27,732 nt of DNA from a virus, in IMG/VR virus record IMGVR_UViG_3300030012_001302, positions 1-27,732 of that record. One strand, 5' to 3'. The translations under genes and the position numbers were made by a program. Below the pieces are notes generated by a model. It saw nothing but the letters and a program-made list of their open reading frames with translations, was not told the DNA's origin and made no database searches. Each line of letters starts with the position of its first letter. Position 1 is the stretch's first letter. This document shows, in pieces, positions 2,271 through 27,732 of this stretch.

Positions 2271-2835
2271 GTTCTATCCGCAGACGTGGATTACAGGTCG
2301 TATAATGTTAGAATCGCACACGGTCAAGGGTGTGTTTATTGATTGCTGTAACTTATTATTTACTCGTGAGTGTGATGTTGACGAGGAGATGCTTAGAGAG
2401 TATATCCGCAACGATAAGGCAATTGACCGATTGTTTAAGCGTGGCTTTATGCGTATTAAGAATGACCAAGTGGTTATTGATTGGATATGCGAGGAGGTAG
2501 AAGGTGCTGTAAATCGCACTAAGATTGCACAGGAAAAAGCACACAAGCGATGGAGCGGTAATGCTACGGCAATGCAACAGCATAGCCACGGCAATGCTAA
2601 AAGAAAAGAAGAGAATAAAACACAAAAGAAGTTTATTAAACCAACAGAGAAACAGGTCACAGAGTACTTTAAGGAAAATGGCAAATCTGCATCTGAGGCA
2701 TCTAAGTTTTATCTCTACTATGACTCACAAGGTTGGCTAAAGTCAAACGGCTTAGAGGTTAAAAATTGGAAGTCAACAGCACGTACTTGGTGGAGCAAAG
2801 AGGATAAGTCTAAACCTAATTATAAATTTGCCTAA
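2251..2835 (+). CDS. Phage replication initiator / helicase-loader-like protein
   Basis: This 194-aa protein sits immediately upstream of the DnaB-type helicase gene (1-nt overlap), the lambda O/P-like position. The N-terminal part (about 1-85, MALKWFKFYPQTWITG..., ending with VVIDWICEEVE) looks like a winged-helix initiator domain of the DnaD/DUF1376-like kind. A short polar linker (about 100-125) joins it to a C-terminal module (about 128-185) with the pattern KPTEKQVTEYFKENG, then KFYLYYDSQGW and NWKSTARTWW, seen in helicase-loading proteins of Bacteroidota phages. The DNA for the linker carries a tandem 11-bp repeat (2556-2599) that is out of step with the reading frame, as in initiators whose gene contains the origin. 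The exact biochemical role is inferred from position. Confidence 0.68.
   Translation: MALKWFKFYPQTWITGRIMLESHTVKGVFIDCCNLLFTRECDVDEEMLREYIRNDKAIDRLFKRGFMRIKNDQVVIDWICEEVEGAVNRTKIAQEKAHKRWSGNATAMQQHSHGNAKRKEENKTQKKFIKPTEKQVTEYFKENGKSASEASKFYLYYDSQGWLKSNGLEVKNWKSTARTWWSKEDKSKPNYKFA
2556..2599 (+). repeat. 11-bp iteron array inside the initiator gene; candidate origin
   Basis: Four tandem 11-mers run without gaps: CGGTAATGCTA, CGGCAATGCAA, CAGCATAGCCA, CGGCAATGCTA, followed at once by AAAGAAAAGAA. The 11-nt period is not a multiple of three, so it is not explained by repeated amino acids and suggests selection on the DNA itself. A related array plus the same purine-rich tail lies at 10125-10179. 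Iterons spaced about one helical turn apart within an initiator gene, next to an A-rich tract, resemble the lambda O-type origin. The origin function is inference. Confidence 0.6.
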
Positions 2836-4139
2836 TGAGACACGAGAAAATTGAGGTTATTGTATTAGGCTCTATCCTGATGGAGAAAGATGCGTATCAC
2901 GTTGTGTCAGGCATCTTACAACCTGATTACTTTACAGGATGGCACGAGGAGGTTTACACGGCAATTGTTGAAGTAAACGCTGATGCTAAGCCTATTGACT
3001 TGCTGACGGTATGCGAAAAGCTAAAAGCAAAGCGTAGTAATGTTAAAGCCTTTGACGTTGCATCTTTAACTAACAAGCTTGGAAGCTCTGCTAATATCGA
3101 GGCACACGCTTGGATACTTAAAAACAGAGCGATTAAACGAGAACTTGAACTGATGGGTTTAATGATCGCACAAGAGGCCGACAAAGACAACGTATCGGTC
3201 AATGAATTACTTGAAAAGGTGCAACAGCGAGTTAACGCAATGACTACAAGTTTTGAGCAGGTAAAGCCTGAGCGACTTGCTACAATTATGAATCGTGAAC
3301 TTGCCGAGCGTAGCACAAGAGAGGGCGGTATGTTGGGAGTGCCGACAGGACTGCATAAATGGGACAAGGCAATCGGAGGATTGTATACAGGAGTTCACGT
3401 AGTTGCAGCACGTCCTGCAATGGGTAAGACTGCCTTTGCCGTTAGTATTGCGGTAAATGCGTGCAGGGAGTTGCCTGTTTGCTTTTGGAGTGGCGAAATG
3501 ATTAGAGACAAGATTGCACTACGTGTGGAATCGTATTTAAGCGGAATACAGACAGAGCGGTTACGACTTAACAGAATAAACGACTCTGAGCGTATGAAGT
3601 ACGATCAAGCACACACTACAATGCAGGACTTAGACTTTGAGGTTGACGATACGCCAAGCATTAACTTTGCTCAGTTGCGTATTAAGTGTCTAAAGTGGAG
3701 AGCCAAGTACGGCAAGTTTATACTTGTAATGGATTACCTTGGGCTTATGGACGATGGCGGAGACGAGTACAGAGGCGTTACGCAGAACTCTAAAAACATA
3801 CACGCAATGGCAAACGAGTTAGACATACCAATTGTGTTGTTGCATCAGTTAAGTCGAAGCGTTGAGTCACGATCAGACAAAGTGCCACAGCTTAGTGATC
3901 TTCGTGCATCAGGAGGTATTGAGCAGGATGCTGACACGGTAACCTTTCTGTATCGACCTGAGTATTATGAGCTAATGGAAGACCCAATAAGAGGAGGGGA
4001 GACCGAGAAAGGCAAGGCATACGGCATTATTAAGAAGAATCGAGAAGGCGAATGTTTAGTGTGTGACTTGCGGTTTGTCGGCCAAAGTAGTCGTTATGAT
4101 AATTGGGATGTGGACAATGTGGACTTTACACCATTTTAA
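2835..4139 (+). CDS. dnaB: Replicative DNA helicase, DnaB family
   Basis: This 434-aa protein is a hexameric 5'-3' helicase that unwinds DNA at the phage fork. The N-terminal domain (about 1-110) has the DnaB-N layout with an LGSILMEKDAY start. The RecA-like domain carries Walker A RPAMGKT (193-199), a Walker B-like FILVMDYLGLM, the arginine-rich LHQLSRSVESR segment (motif 3 region), and LRASGGIEQDADTVTFLYRP, the classical DnaB motif 4. The length is slightly below the 450-470 aa of bacterial DnaB, as is usual for phage copies. Its start shares one nucleotide with the stop of the initiator-like gene, implying coupling and a matched loader-helicase pair. SSB follows 485 nt downstream. The phage has no polymerase or primase gene that I can see, so it presumably uses host enzymes for synthesis. 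Confidence 0.95.
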   Translation: MRHEKIEVIVLGSILMEKDAYHVVSGILQPDYFTGWHEEVYTAIVEVNADAKPIDLLTVCEKLKAKRSNVKAFDVASLTNKLGSSANIEAHAWILKNRAIKRELELMGLMIAQEADKDNVSVNELLEKVQQRVNAMTTSFEQVKPERLATIMNRELAERSTREGGMLGVPTGLHKWDKAIGGLYTGVHVVAARPAMGKTAFAVSIAVNACRELPVCFWSGEMIRDKIALRVESYLSGIQTERLRLNRINDSERMKYDQAHTTMQDLDFEVDDTPSINFAQLRIKCLKWRAKYGKFILVMDYLGLMDDGGDEYRGVTQNSKNIHAMANELDIPIVLLHQLSRSVESRSDKVPQLSDLRASGGIEQDADTVTFLYRPEYYELMEDPIRGGETEKGKAYGIIKKNREGECLVCDLRFVGQSSRYDNWDVDNVDFTPF

Positions 4140-6626: not shown

Positions 6627-7126
6627 TGCTATTGTGGGCATTTACCGCAACAGCACAGATACACATTAAACCTGTAAACCTGCCGAGCAAGGCAACAATA
6701 CAGATAACAGATATGCACTTCCCTGTGGATGGTGTCTTAGTTAGTGGACACGGATGGCGTAATGGTCGTATGCACCACGGACTTGATATATCACATAACA
6801 ACAGGGACACAGTAAGAAGTGCTTGGTCAGGTCGTGTTAGATACGCTAAGAAAGGACACAACGGAGGATATGGCTATCTTGTTATCTTAACACACCTCAA
6901 CGGACTAGAAACGTACTACGCACACCTTAGGGAGTTGCTTGTAAAAGATGGCGAGTGGATAAGGAAAGGCAGACCTGTGGGCATAGTAGGTAGCACAGGA
7001 CATTCATCAGGGCCACACCTACACTTTGAGGTTAGATACAAAGGACTGTCTATTAACCCTGAGGACGTTGTTGACAAACGCATACTAAACCTAGAGCTAA
7101 GTAACAATATATTTAAGGTACGATGA
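6599..7126 (+). CDS. Secreted M23-family peptidoglycan endopeptidase
   Basis: This 175-aa protein begins with a signal peptide (hydrophobic core about 5-17, cut probably after ATA at 17-19). The zinc peptidase domain follows: MHHGLD (58-63, HxxxD), GYGYLVILTHLNGLETYYAHL with the YAH at 107-109, and SSGPHLHFE (136-144) containing the HxH motif. These are the complete catalytic elements of lysostaphin/M23 enzymes that cleave peptide cross-links. The signal peptide means export by the host Sec system rather than through a holin. It could act late in lysis, or be incorporated near the virion or cell envelope. It overlaps the ParB-like gene by 4 nt (ATGA). Confidence 0.9.
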   Translation: MVCRYAIVLMLLWAFTATAQIHIKPVNLPSKATIQITDMHFPVDGVLVSGHGWRNGRMHHGLDISHNNRDTVRSAWSGRVRYAKKGHNGGYGYLVILTHLNGLETYYAHLRELLVKDGEWIRKGRPVGIVGSTGHSSGPHLHFEVRYKGLSINPEDVVDKRILNLELSNNIFKVR

Positions 7127-7650
7127 ACACTACAATAATGAAGCTGTCTGCGATTAAGCAGAATCCTAATAACCCACGAAGCATAAACAAGGACAAGTTT
7201 GCTAAGTTGGTAAAGTCAATCGAGGAGTTCCCTCGTATGCTTGAGCTTAGACCTATTGTACTAAACAAGGATAACATTGTACTTGGTGGCAATATGCGAC
7301 TTAAGGCGTGTAAGCACATAGGACTAAGTGAAGTGCCTGTTGTTTACGCTGATGATCTAACAGAGGAAGAGCAACGGCAGTTTATTATTAAGGACAACGT
7401 TGGCTTTGGCGATTGGGATTGGGAACTGCTTGCAAATGAGTGGGAGGTTAGTGACCTAAACGATTGGGGATTAGATGTGCCACAAGTACTTGACGAGGCG
7501 TTCGAACAGCCTGAAGAGGAGCAAGAAAAACATTCAACAATAAAGATTACCTTTGAGAGTGCAGAGCAATTACAGAAGGCCGAGGTTGACATACAAGAAC
7601 TTATCGACAGAAAGTATAGCGGTGCGTACTTCGTAACAACAGCAATATGA
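7123..7650 (+). CDS. ParB/Srx-fold domain protein
   Basis: This 175-aa protein has an N-terminal ParB-like nuclease domain (about 5-90): IKQNPNNPRSI, LVKSIEEFP, RPIVLNKDNIVLGGNMRLKA (43-62, including the GxxR box) and VYADDLTEEEQRQFIIKDN. The following DWDWELLANEW (97-107) segment is a common continuation in phage copies. It has no helix-turn-helix for centromere binding, so it is not a partition ParB. Such proteins often sit beside terminase and methyltransferase genes in phages. A nucleotide-dependent clamp, nuclease or DNA-modification role is possible but unproven. The start could also be ATG 7138. It shares an ATGA overlap with the terminase small subunit gene. Confidence 0.8.
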   Translation: MNTTIMKLSAIKQNPNNPRSINKDKFAKLVKSIEEFPRMLELRPIVLNKDNIVLGGNMRLKACKHIGLSEVPVVYADDLTEEEQRQFIIKDNVGFGDWDWELLANEWEVSDLNDWGLDVPQVLDEAFEQPEEEQEKHSTIKITFESAEQLQKAEVDIQELIDRKYSGAYFVTTAI

Positions 7651-9164: not shown

Positions 9165-9926
9165 ATGATACAACTACACAAAGGCGATTGCTTAGAAGTG
9201 ATGCAGGAAATTGCAGACGGCTCTGTTGATGCAATTATAACTGATCCTCCATACGGCACGACAGCTTGCAAGTGGGATAGCGTGATACCTTTCGAGCCTA
9301 TGTGGGAGCAACTAAATAGGGTTATAAAGCCAAACGGAGCAATTGTCTTATTTGGCTCTGAGCCTTTTAGTAGTGCTTTAAGAATGAGTAATATCAAAAA
9401 TTATAAATATGAGTTAATATGGAAAAAATCAAAGTGTGGTAGTCCTCTGACTGCAAAGTATAAACCGTTAACAAAGCACGAAAATATATCTATATTTGAA
9501 AAAAGAGGTAAAAAAACAACATATAATCCTCAAATGATAGAAGGTACACCATATAAAAGGACTTCTAAAGTTGGTAAAGATAATAATATGGAATATGGTG
9601 CAAAATGTGGGTTTGAGTATGGTTCAGAGAATGGTTTACGACATCCTGATTGTATTTTAGATTTTCCTCAAAAATGGAGAAGACAAGACCAAGTTCATCC
9701 TACACAAAAGCCTGTGCCATTAATGGAATACCTAATTAAAACCTACACCAACGAAGGCGAGGTTGTACTTGACTTTACTATGGGTAGCGGCTCAACAGGC
9801 GTGGCTTGCGTAAACACCAAACGCTCGTTTATCGGCATCGAACAAGATGACAAGTACTTTGCTATTGCTCAAGATCGCATTGACAATGCACAACGTCAGT
9901 CGTTGATTGATTTCCCTACCCAATAG
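9165..9926 (+). CDS. DNA methyltransferase, beta-class (N6-adenine or N4-cytosine)
   Basis: This 253-aa protein has the catalytic motif IV DPPYGT (27-32) near the N-terminus and the SAM-binding motif I DFTMGSGSTG (203-212) near the C-terminus, with HPTQKPVPLMEYLI (178-191) between. That order defines the beta class. No restriction enzyme is next to it, so it probably protects phage DNA from host restriction. The two ends match the base and codon use of the neighbours, but the middle (about 9380-9700, residues 72-178, the target-recognition area) is much more A/T rich, suggesting the recognition domain was exchanged. After the stop, another frame stays open for about 24 codons (see 9927-10000). 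Confidence 0.9.
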   Translation: MIQLHKGDCLEVMQEIADGSVDAIITDPPYGTTACKWDSVIPFEPMWEQLNRVIKPNGAIVLFGSEPFSSALRMSNIKNYKYELIWKKSKCGSPLTAKYKPLTKHENISIFEKRGKKTTYNPQMIEGTPYKRTSKVGKDNNMEYGAKCGFEYGSENGLRHPDCILDFPQKWRRQDQVHPTQKPVPLMEYLIKTYTNEGEVVLDFTMGSGSTGVACVNTKRSFIGIEQDDKYFAIAQDRIDNAQRQSLIDFPTQ

Positions 9927-10060: not shown

Positions 10061-10082
10061 GTCTAAGATACAACTCTTAGAC
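10061..10082. promoter_or_regulatory. Perfect 8-bp inverted repeat
   Basis: GTCTAAGA (10061-10068), spacer TACAAC, TCTTAGAC (10075-10082). It is a perfect dyad in the main intergenic region. It could be an operator for a dimeric regulator or an origin-associated hairpin. There is no T tract after it, so it is not a terminator. Confidence 0.45.
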
Positions 10083-10124: not shown

Positions 10125-10168
10125 GTTCTATGCCGTAGCAATGCCGTAGCAATGCTGTTGCAATGCTA
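10125..10168 (+). repeat. Second 11-bp iteron array
   Basis: Tandem 11-mers GTTCTATGCCG, TAGCAATGCCG, TAGCAATGCTG and TTGCAATGCTA share the GCAATGC core and 11-bp spacing of the array in the initiator gene, and end in the same AAAGAAAAGAA (10169-10179). The last 19-20 bases of both arrays (GCAATGCTAAAAGAAAAGA...) are identical. All reading frames through it are short, so here the array is non-coding. Confidence 0.65.
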
Positions 10169-10257
10169 AAAGAAAAGAATAGAAAAGAAAAGAACATAAG
10201 TTATTAGTGCAAAATGACTTTGAAATTTATTGTCTATATTTAGGGCAAACGTAACCA

Positions 10258-10626
10258 ATGGCAATTAAGACACTATTCATACCGCTTGACCAAGTAGAAA
10301 GCAAAAGCGAAAAACAAAACATAAGAGACAAATACGACAGGATTGAAGAAAAGACTAAGAAGTTCGACGATGCTCAGGTAACACGAATGAACTCAGGACT
10401 TGATTCTGTTATCTCTACCCTTGACAGTTACCTCAACCCGCACCATCTAATTAACAATCCAAACGGAGGTTACTCAATCGTATCTGTAACGCCTGTATTA
10501 GGCACAGAGACAGAGAAGGTTGACAAGGACGAGCCTATGTTGCCGTTAGTGCATACGACAGGCTTTATGGTTATCTTACACAAAGACGGAGCATCAGGAG
10601 GATTACAACCTGTCTTAAACCCTTAA
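10258..10626 (+). CDS. Hypothetical protein, first gene of the tail/neck block
   Basis: This 122-aa protein opens the long morphogenesis block after the intergenic region. The N-terminal half is charged and helical (QVESKSEKQNIRDKYDRIEE), followed by a beta-type half (GGYSIVSVTPVLGTETEKV, GFMVILHKDG). There is no recognised family. Its place before neck-type genes suggests a structural or assembly role. The ATG follows an A/C-rich leader without a Shine-Dalgarno site. Confidence 0.7.
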   Translation: MAIKTLFIPLDQVESKSEKQNIRDKYDRIEEKTKKFDDAQVTRMNSGLDSVISTLDSYLNPHHLINNPNGGYSIVSVTPVLGTETEKVDKDEPMLPLVHTTGFMVILHKDGASGGLQPVLNP

Positions 10627-27134: not shown

Positions 27135-27732
27135 AGACTACCTGAAGCGTATATCTGTCCGTATTTCATAAACTCTAAAAGACAAGCTTGATAGGTGTGT
27201 TCTATGACACTTCCTTGTTCAGCAGGCTTTGCAAATATACCTGCGGATGCAAGCCGAGCAACCATCGTAGTCCATCCAAAGTTATATTTGGGAGCAGACG
27301 AGTTGCTTTTTTCGTGAGTTCTGTCAAAGAAGGCAGGGTATCCTTCTTGAATGTGTGATTGAACAAAAGAAAAAAAAAGGAGGCGGATAGTATTGCGTCC
27401 ATATTGACATCCTTCCAATCTTCTAGTCTACGTGCAAACTCTACGTCATTAACTTCGACAGGGCCACGAGCAAACGCAGCCAACAAAAGGAGTCCTACAT
27501 CTGCATTGCTATTGCTATCGTACTCTGAATCTTGTAAAAACTTCATTGCATCGTTGGCATTTTCCCAATCTCCGACCGTCATAAACGGCTTGTCACCTGC
27601 TTGTGCTTTGCCTAACATTGGTATTTCATACATTACATCGTTGTGCCAAAACTCTTTGACCTCAGGCATCTCCTCCATCCACATTATAAGGTTGCCAAGT
27701 ATAGCAGAGAACTCCATAATGTTGGCCTCGTT
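27131..27732 (-). CDS. Tail-assembly-chaperone-like protein, C-terminal part, with -1 frameshift
   Basis: This is the continuation of the gene starting at 281. In frame 0 it passes MEFSAILGNLIMWMEEMPEV, YEIPMLGKAQAG, GDWENANDAMKF, LLLLAAFARGPVEV and AILSASFFF, then ends at 27202 (236 aa). At the T9 run (27378-27370 read on the minus strand) the -1 frame opens and continues to 27131: SFVQSHIQEGYPAFFDRT, then KYNFGWTTMVARLASAGIF and VIEHTYQACLLEFMKYGQIY, for a total near 260 aa. The FF stop-over followed by an FGW..LA..G segment is the arrangement of tail-assembly chaperones of the G/GT kind. Leu codons favour the -1 frame after the run (the frame-0 tail is rich in CTG/CTC, rare elsewhere here). 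The lone minus orientation and distance from the tape measure are unusual for such a protein, so the name is tentative. Confidence 0.65.
27370..27378 (-). promoter_or_regulatory. Candidate -1 frameshift (slippery) site
   Basis: On the minus strand the codons read TCC TTT TTT TTT CTT, a nine-T run that contains the T-TTT-TTT slippery heptamer in the correct phase (X XXY YYZ). Slipping back one base joins the frame-0 gene to the downstream -1 frame. I did not identify a stimulatory hairpin after it by eye. A one-base homopolymer error would give the same picture. Confidence 0.5.
27632..27732. repeat. Terminal direct repeat, right copy
   Basis: This repeats 1-101 with a single T/C difference at 27634 against 3. 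Removing one copy gives a circle of about 27,631 bp in which the minus-strand gene is continuous. Confidence 0.93.

Follow-up and report, generated by a model that had tools for sequence, protein, structure and literature searches.

Gene context of the in-gene array

We analyzed a stretch of viral DNA of 27,732 nt (IMG/VR record IMGVR_UViG_3300030012_001302, positions 1 to 27,732), hereafter referred to as the window. Its first and last 101 bp (1-101 and 27632-27732) form a terminal repeat with a single mismatch, as expected of a closed circle. The replication region of the window presents the following features:

1866-2270, + strand: gene of a small DnaA-domain-IV-like protein (PF08299, E = 1.3e-11), upstream neighbour and alternative binder of the array
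2251-2835, + strand: replication initiator or helicase-loader-like gene that holds the array (open reading frame; N-terminal domain at residues 1-101, linker, C-terminal helical domain)
2556-2599, + strand: in-gene iteron array, 4 x 11 bp (sequence, self-match at lag 11, conservation in nine homologues)
2600-2640, + strand: A-rich purine tract, candidate unwinding region (80% AT, instability)
2835-4139, + strand: next gene, DnaB-type replicative helicase (PF03796, E = 1e-66; PF00772, E = 1e-15)

An Erf/Rad52-type single-strand annealing protein is encoded at 1081-1551, and a ParB-like partition or nuclease-like protein at 7123-7650, near the terminase genes.

The array is located in the linker between the two domains of the product of 2251-2835. 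This protein had no Pfam match at E = 0.1 and did not match DUF1376 (PF07120) even at E = 10; it did not match Lin1244_N (PF14297) either, with a profile match that covered only 39 columns, and its PHROGs matches are families of unknown function. Aligned with hhalign, the family to which its N-terminal domain belongs shows a remote match to DUF1376 over 78 columns, among them the A..RW end (probability 67%, P = 5e-5). The predicted structure of the whole product was poor (pLDDT 46) and was set aside. The model of the DUF1376 N-terminal domain presents helices and a small wing and looks winged-helix-like (pLDDT 82). A fold search with this model returned no match at E < 0.001, its list being rich in winged-helix proteins that did not reach significance, and sequence searches of the PDB returned no relevant match.

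Sequence of the array and departure from chance

The first-pass annotation described four gapless 11-mers with a shared core. The period of 11, the absence of gaps and the location inside the open reading frame were all confirmed: the array spans 2556-2599 (CGGTAATGCTA CGGCAATGCAA CAGCATAGCCA CGGCAATGCTA) and is directly followed by AAAGAAAAGAA. The shared core applies to part of the array only. The cores read GTAATGC (2558-2564), GCAATGC (2569-2575), GCATAGC (2580-2586) and GCAATGC (2591-2597), and the full core GGCAATGC is exact in just two units (2568-2575 and 2590-2597). Unit 1 reads GGTAATGC instead, and unit 3 (CAGCATAGCCA) shares 7 of its 11 positions with CGGCAATGCTA. The array is best described as three good units with the core GCAATGC and one degenerate unit with the core GCATAGC.

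The self-match of the array at lag 11 is 23/33. Of 400 surrogates generated from the whole 27.7 kb with an order-2 Markov model, 2 reached this value, and none of 5000 versions of the gene 2251-2835 with shuffled codons did. Two exact GCAATGC words spaced by 11, 22 or 33 nt were found in none of the 400 surrogates. These codon tests uphold the earlier argument that the repeat, whose period is not divisible by three, is not a by-product of repeated amino acids. The array was absent from the output of Tandem Repeats Finder at a score of at least 30, and the evidence from this single genome is moderate.

The tract 3' of the array is 80% AT, and approximately 1% of the 40-bp windows of the record are equally or more unstable. 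It corresponds to the AT-rich region that adjoins the iterons of lambda-type in-gene origins. GC skew follows gene content in the window and is uninformative on the origin; the site of the array is not marked by it (detrended minimum at 458, maximum at 9634).

Conservation of the cores in related viruses

We compared nine related homologues of the gene 2251-2835, whose sites are not independent, and observed that 2 of the 28 core sites are variable against 10 of the 12 sites of the 4-nt spacers. This difference was also observed at third codon positions: 2 of 9 are variable in the core and 90 of 101 in the N-terminal, upstream coding part (Fisher test, P = 3e-5). None of the 19 first and second codon positions of the core vary, and even the degenerate core GCATAGC is unchanged in all nine homologues. 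The residues encoded by the spacers, on the other hand, differ among homologues (T/N, QQ/LT/RP, H/N/T/G and G/S). Alanine within unit 2 is encoded by GCA in every case. By contrast, GCT, GCA, GCC and GCG all occur for the alanine codon that has its third base in the first spacer. Changes from glycine to serine use AGC, which preserves the GC of the core, and one relative (L124) has several altered spacer residues but retains all cores.

The alignment that the first-pass annotation had proposed therefore gave the outcome it had looked for, with the 11-bp phase and the cores kept while residues change. The core is nearly frozen while the spacers and their residues vary, and this pattern favours selection acting at the DNA level. 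With this comparative evidence, the support for the array becomes strong.

A second array upstream of the structural operon

A second array, which the first-pass annotation missed, was detected in the non-coding DNA that separates a methyltransferase-like gene (9165-9926) from the gene that starts at 10258. This region comprises:

10130-10166, + strand: second array, core GCAATGC, in the non-coding gap (Tandem Repeats Finder, 3.4 copies, 92%)
10167-10195, + strand: AAAAG/AATAG tract of period 5, after the second array (listed by Tandem Repeats Finder as an AAAAG array at 10168-10194; invariant positions in nine sequences)
10205-10257, + strand: conserved block (GTGCAAAATGACTTTG...TATATTTAGGGCAAAC), possible promoter (kept in most of nine sequences)
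10258-10626, + strand: first gene of the structural operon (tblastn synteny in eight relatives)

The repeat unit given by Tandem Repeats Finder is ATGCCGTAGCA x 3.4, with exact cores at 10138, 10149 and 10160 and one partial core. The self-match at lag 11 is 26/33, stronger than that of the in-gene array, and was reached by none of 400 surrogates. A 20-mer, GCAATGCTAAAAGAAAAGAA, is exact in both places, at 2591-2610 and in the region of the second array and its tract. The conserved block 10205-10257 is possibly a promoter, and no sigma-70 match was found in it. No PHROG match was found for the gene 10258-10626.

In eight relatives, an array is present at the corresponding place (exact with three cores in most, a weaker copy in L131 and G007). 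The homologue of the gene at 10258 is always just 3' of it in the relatives that cover the place, and the gene upstream varies. Aligning nine sequences, we found the cores and the A tract of period 5 to be conserved but not the spacers. In 27 other records of at least 26 kb, allowing up to two mismatches, we found no second array at a distance above 1 kb, so that this feature is special to the group of the window. Just 5' of this array, an inverted repeat (GTCTAAGA...TCTTAGAC, 10061-10082) is kept in several relatives; two relatives present a different stem and a T run in its place.

Arrays in initiators sampled by their N-terminal domain

We collected initiators by their N-terminal domain only, ignoring repeats, which yielded an unbiased sample. 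Exact cores spaced by a multiple of 11 occurred at least twice in 13 of 72 DUF1376 linkers and in 10 of 24 Lin1244_N linkers; 630 permuted cores submitted to the same test gave means of 0.04 and 0.03, respectively. Self-similarity at lag 11 was detected in 23 of the 72 DUF1376 linkers, in no N-terminal control segment and in no codon shuffle, and none was found at lags 12 and 18 in DUF1376 linkers. Of 83 tracts located 3' of an array, 34 consist of a short-period repeat and 30 are poor in G or C, against 1/83 and 3/83, respectively, in the controls.

Some of the sampled linkers hold a period of 11 with another core, such as TTCAACG. The Cellulophaga phages Nekkels_1 (L494) and phi10:1 (L495), whose initiators are relatives of the window protein by their N-terminal domain, carry period-11 repeats of TTCAACA and AACCGAA at the linker position. 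Linker repeats of period 11 with other cores (TTCAACA, AACCGAA, TTCAACG and CCCAGTCG) were seen altogether in L494, L495, L336, L339, L340 and L376.

Recurrence of the motif in viruses and bacteria

At least 119 viral stretches contain the motif GCAATGC-N4-GCAATGC-N4-GCAATGC; its reversed form, used as a control, occurs in 10. Among the 121 arrays listed, 95 lie in sense open reading frames of at least 120 aa, 69 of which are non-redundant, although the non-redundant sets of these surveys still hold relatives and their members are partly related. The arrays in sense frames are mostly located right after the A..RW motif that ends the N-terminal domain, and several of the remaining arrays are antisense within initiator genes or adjoin them. 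Among the 61 array-bearing proteins listed (including those of the window and of L132), 36 match DUF1376 and 16 match Lin1244_N, and their PHROGs labels are primosomal or replication initiation O-like. Among isolated phages, the boxes were found in Vibrio phage 1.003.O and, in a weaker form, in Acinetobacter phage phiAC-1 and Flavobacterium phage morran9-1.

The search was extended to contigs of bacterial genomes, where 16 of the 62 listed stretches lie in recognisable initiators with a clear N-terminal match; these include initiators from Bartonella, Clostridium, Chryseobacterium, Paenibacillus and Quisquiliibacterium. Most of the bacterial matches lie in other contexts, which indicates that in chromosomes the pattern does not by itself prove an origin. 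When the spacing was left free, the core was also found at 12, 15, 18 and 21 bp, and these matches are probably coding repeats. A BLAST search of the array region of the window against phages yielded chance matches only, and no homologue was found among plasmids.

Many initiators present a second cluster of boxes approximately 170-230 bp upstream, in the codons of the N-terminal domain and often on the opposite strand (L028, L077, L087, L109; G016, G023, G027, G030, G033-G035, G037 and G038). Non-coding arrays of five GCAATGC units followed by AAGT repeats were seen near methyltransferase genes in L012, L079 and L099, with no initiator alongside within the available stretch.

Candidate binding proteins and alternative explanations

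The first-pass annotation proposed that the array is bound either by the product of its own gene or by the DnaA-IV-like protein. Our comparisons favour the first of these candidates: the initiator tracks the array, and the DnaA-IV-like and ParB-like proteins do not. The initiators of the phages morran9-1 and lillamy9-1 share their C-terminal part (243/249 nt) and differ in their N-terminal domain and linker, and of the two phages only morran9-1 has the boxes. This suggests that the box and the N-terminal domain were exchanged together. The product of 2251-2835 is the favoured candidate for the binder of the in-gene array.

The second candidate corresponds to an explanation in which the array is a DnaA-box-like cluster recognized by the DnaA-domain-IV-like protein of 1866-2270. 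The initiator gene starts within the gene of this protein, and PF08299 was found in all five records of the window family. However, only 3 of the 27 other array-bearing records contain this domain, a distribution that led us to reject the protein as a general binder. Moreover, the consensus DnaA box (TTWTNCACA) was found on neither strand of the window, which presents no cluster of such boxes, and in the relative L132 the DnaA-IV-like protein is only 31% identical, with a loader 63% identical, yet the cores are nearly unchanged. We consider this explanation unlikely. Another interpretation is that the arrays are operators rather than an origin, through which the 2251-2835 protein or another regulator would control early genes in cis and the late operon at 10130. 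This would fit the position of the second array, which lies directly 5' of the structural operon and of a promoter-like block in every relative covering the place. In most other phages, however, the sole array lies deep inside the initiator gene and away from a promoter (among the matches listed), and it carries a short-repeat tract, as origins do, which makes operators an improbable explanation as well.

Direct repeats of 11 bp are typical of some centromeres, and parC of plasmid R1 has such repeats. Since the window also encodes a ParB-like protein (7123-7650), the array could be conceived as a partition site bound by this protein. The distribution of the array argues against this: it is tied to initiator genes instead, and PF02195 (ParB_N) was found in only 5 of the 27 other array-bearing records. 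We conclude from the distribution of ParB_N that neither partition nor the ParB-like protein is associated with the array, and a centromere is very improbable here. Finally, the linkers of such initiators are low in complexity and many contain further simple repeats, as would be expected if the array resulted from functionless slippage in a disordered linker whose residues are merely tolerant. Slippage of this kind does not account for a core that is frozen at synonymous sites too while the spacers vary, for a non-coding copy with conserved cores, for an identical core in unrelated initiators, or for a period of 11 rather than a multiple of three. Homologues in which linker residues differ but the DNA cores and the phase of 11 persist, as observed here, refute it. 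It is the explanation to which we attach the least credit.

A putative in-gene origin of replication

The sequences show the arrays and where they lie, that they are conserved as DNA and that they recur in genes of initiators. These observations support the earlier reading of the array as an in-gene origin: the cores are kept while the residues of the spacers change, and iterons followed by a short-repeat tract recur in many unrelated phages. From these sequence comparisons, the best explanation is that the array 2556-2599 and the tract 2600-2640 form an in-gene iteron origin bound by its own initiator, with the second array (10130-10195) as a further binding site. We estimate the probability of this reading at roughly 0.75.

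We infer the identity of the binder, the melting of the tract, the loading of the helicase and the role of the second array as parts of the following mechanism. The N-terminal domain of the 2251-2835 product would bind the GCAATGC boxes, which are one helical turn apart and would all lie on one face of the DNA. Bound in a row, the initiators would melt the A-rich tract next to them, which is strand-biased, and their C-terminal domain would hand over the DnaB-type helicase encoded next door. At 10130-10195, the same protein may be bound before the structural operon, where the second array could be a second origin or a link between late transcription and replication.

A broader proposal is that arrays of GCAATGC-N4, together with the period-11 arrays with other cores, represent a common type of origin of DUF1376, Lin1244_N and related initiators, found in phages and prophages from several phyla of bacteria, that the box is swapped with the N-terminal domain, and that in the group of the window the initiator also occupies a second array, which couples replication with the switch to structural genes. 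We regard the odds of this proposal as about even.

The reading as an origin would give a function and a DNA target to DUF1376 and Lin1244_N, which are common uncharacterised phage families. It also provides a sequence rule, namely GCAATGC every 11 bp in the linker of the initiator followed by a short-repeat tract, which could locate origins in many uncultured phages. The second array makes a coupling between replication and late expression directly testable, and the isolated phages that carry the boxes (Acinetobacter phiAC-1, Vibrio 1.003.O and Flavobacterium morran9-1) open the way to bench tests.

Comparison with known systems

The "primosomal" or "replication initiation" proteins of the DUF1376 (PF07120) and Lin1244_N (PF14297) families include most of the array-bearing genes listed. 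Their genes share with that of the window the same order of N-terminal domain, A..RW motif, array, tract and C-terminal domain. In contrast to the members of these families, the window protein scores below the Pfam models of both, and a remote profile match is its only link to DUF1376. In the open-licence literature, we found no paper that gives DUF1376 or Lin1244_N an origin, and an earlier description elsewhere is possible. The same literature yielded nothing pertinent on GCAATGC or on origins associated with DUF4373 or DUF1376.

The Rac prophage of E. coli has a functional origin, oriJ (PMC3945230). The linker of the Rac gene ydaU (DUF1376) is likewise repetitive, with TGTTCAAACA-like words that recur and a repeat rich in A (L325:10120-10977), but it lacks GCAATGC boxes. 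It is possible that these linker repeats are related to oriJ. We set ydaU aside as an experimentally supported example, as its repeats are different and no map position of oriJ was found.

DnaD of B. subtilis, which loads the helicase, reads a single strand within the unwinding region of oriC (PMC10201434). Its recognition element offers a model for the strand-biased tract of the window, although it is part of the chromosomal oriC and is no 11-bp iteron array within the gene of DnaD.

In phage lambda, as well as in the Stx phages P27 and 933W, the origin consists of iterons in the middle of the initiator gene followed by an AT-rich unwinding region, and extra iterons lengthen the protein; the lambda iterons are imperfect inverted repeats of 19 bp (PMC7466680). 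The window resembles the lambda origin in gene O by an array in the middle of an initiator gene, an adjoining AT-rich tract and a helicase-related gene that follows. It differs by its non-palindromic core of 7 bp, by an initiator from a different family and by a second array before the late operon. Because its repeats are direct and of 11 bp, rather than inverted and of 19 bp, the array is not a member of the lambda-O type; by analogy of layout, we suggest that it works like the lambda origin.
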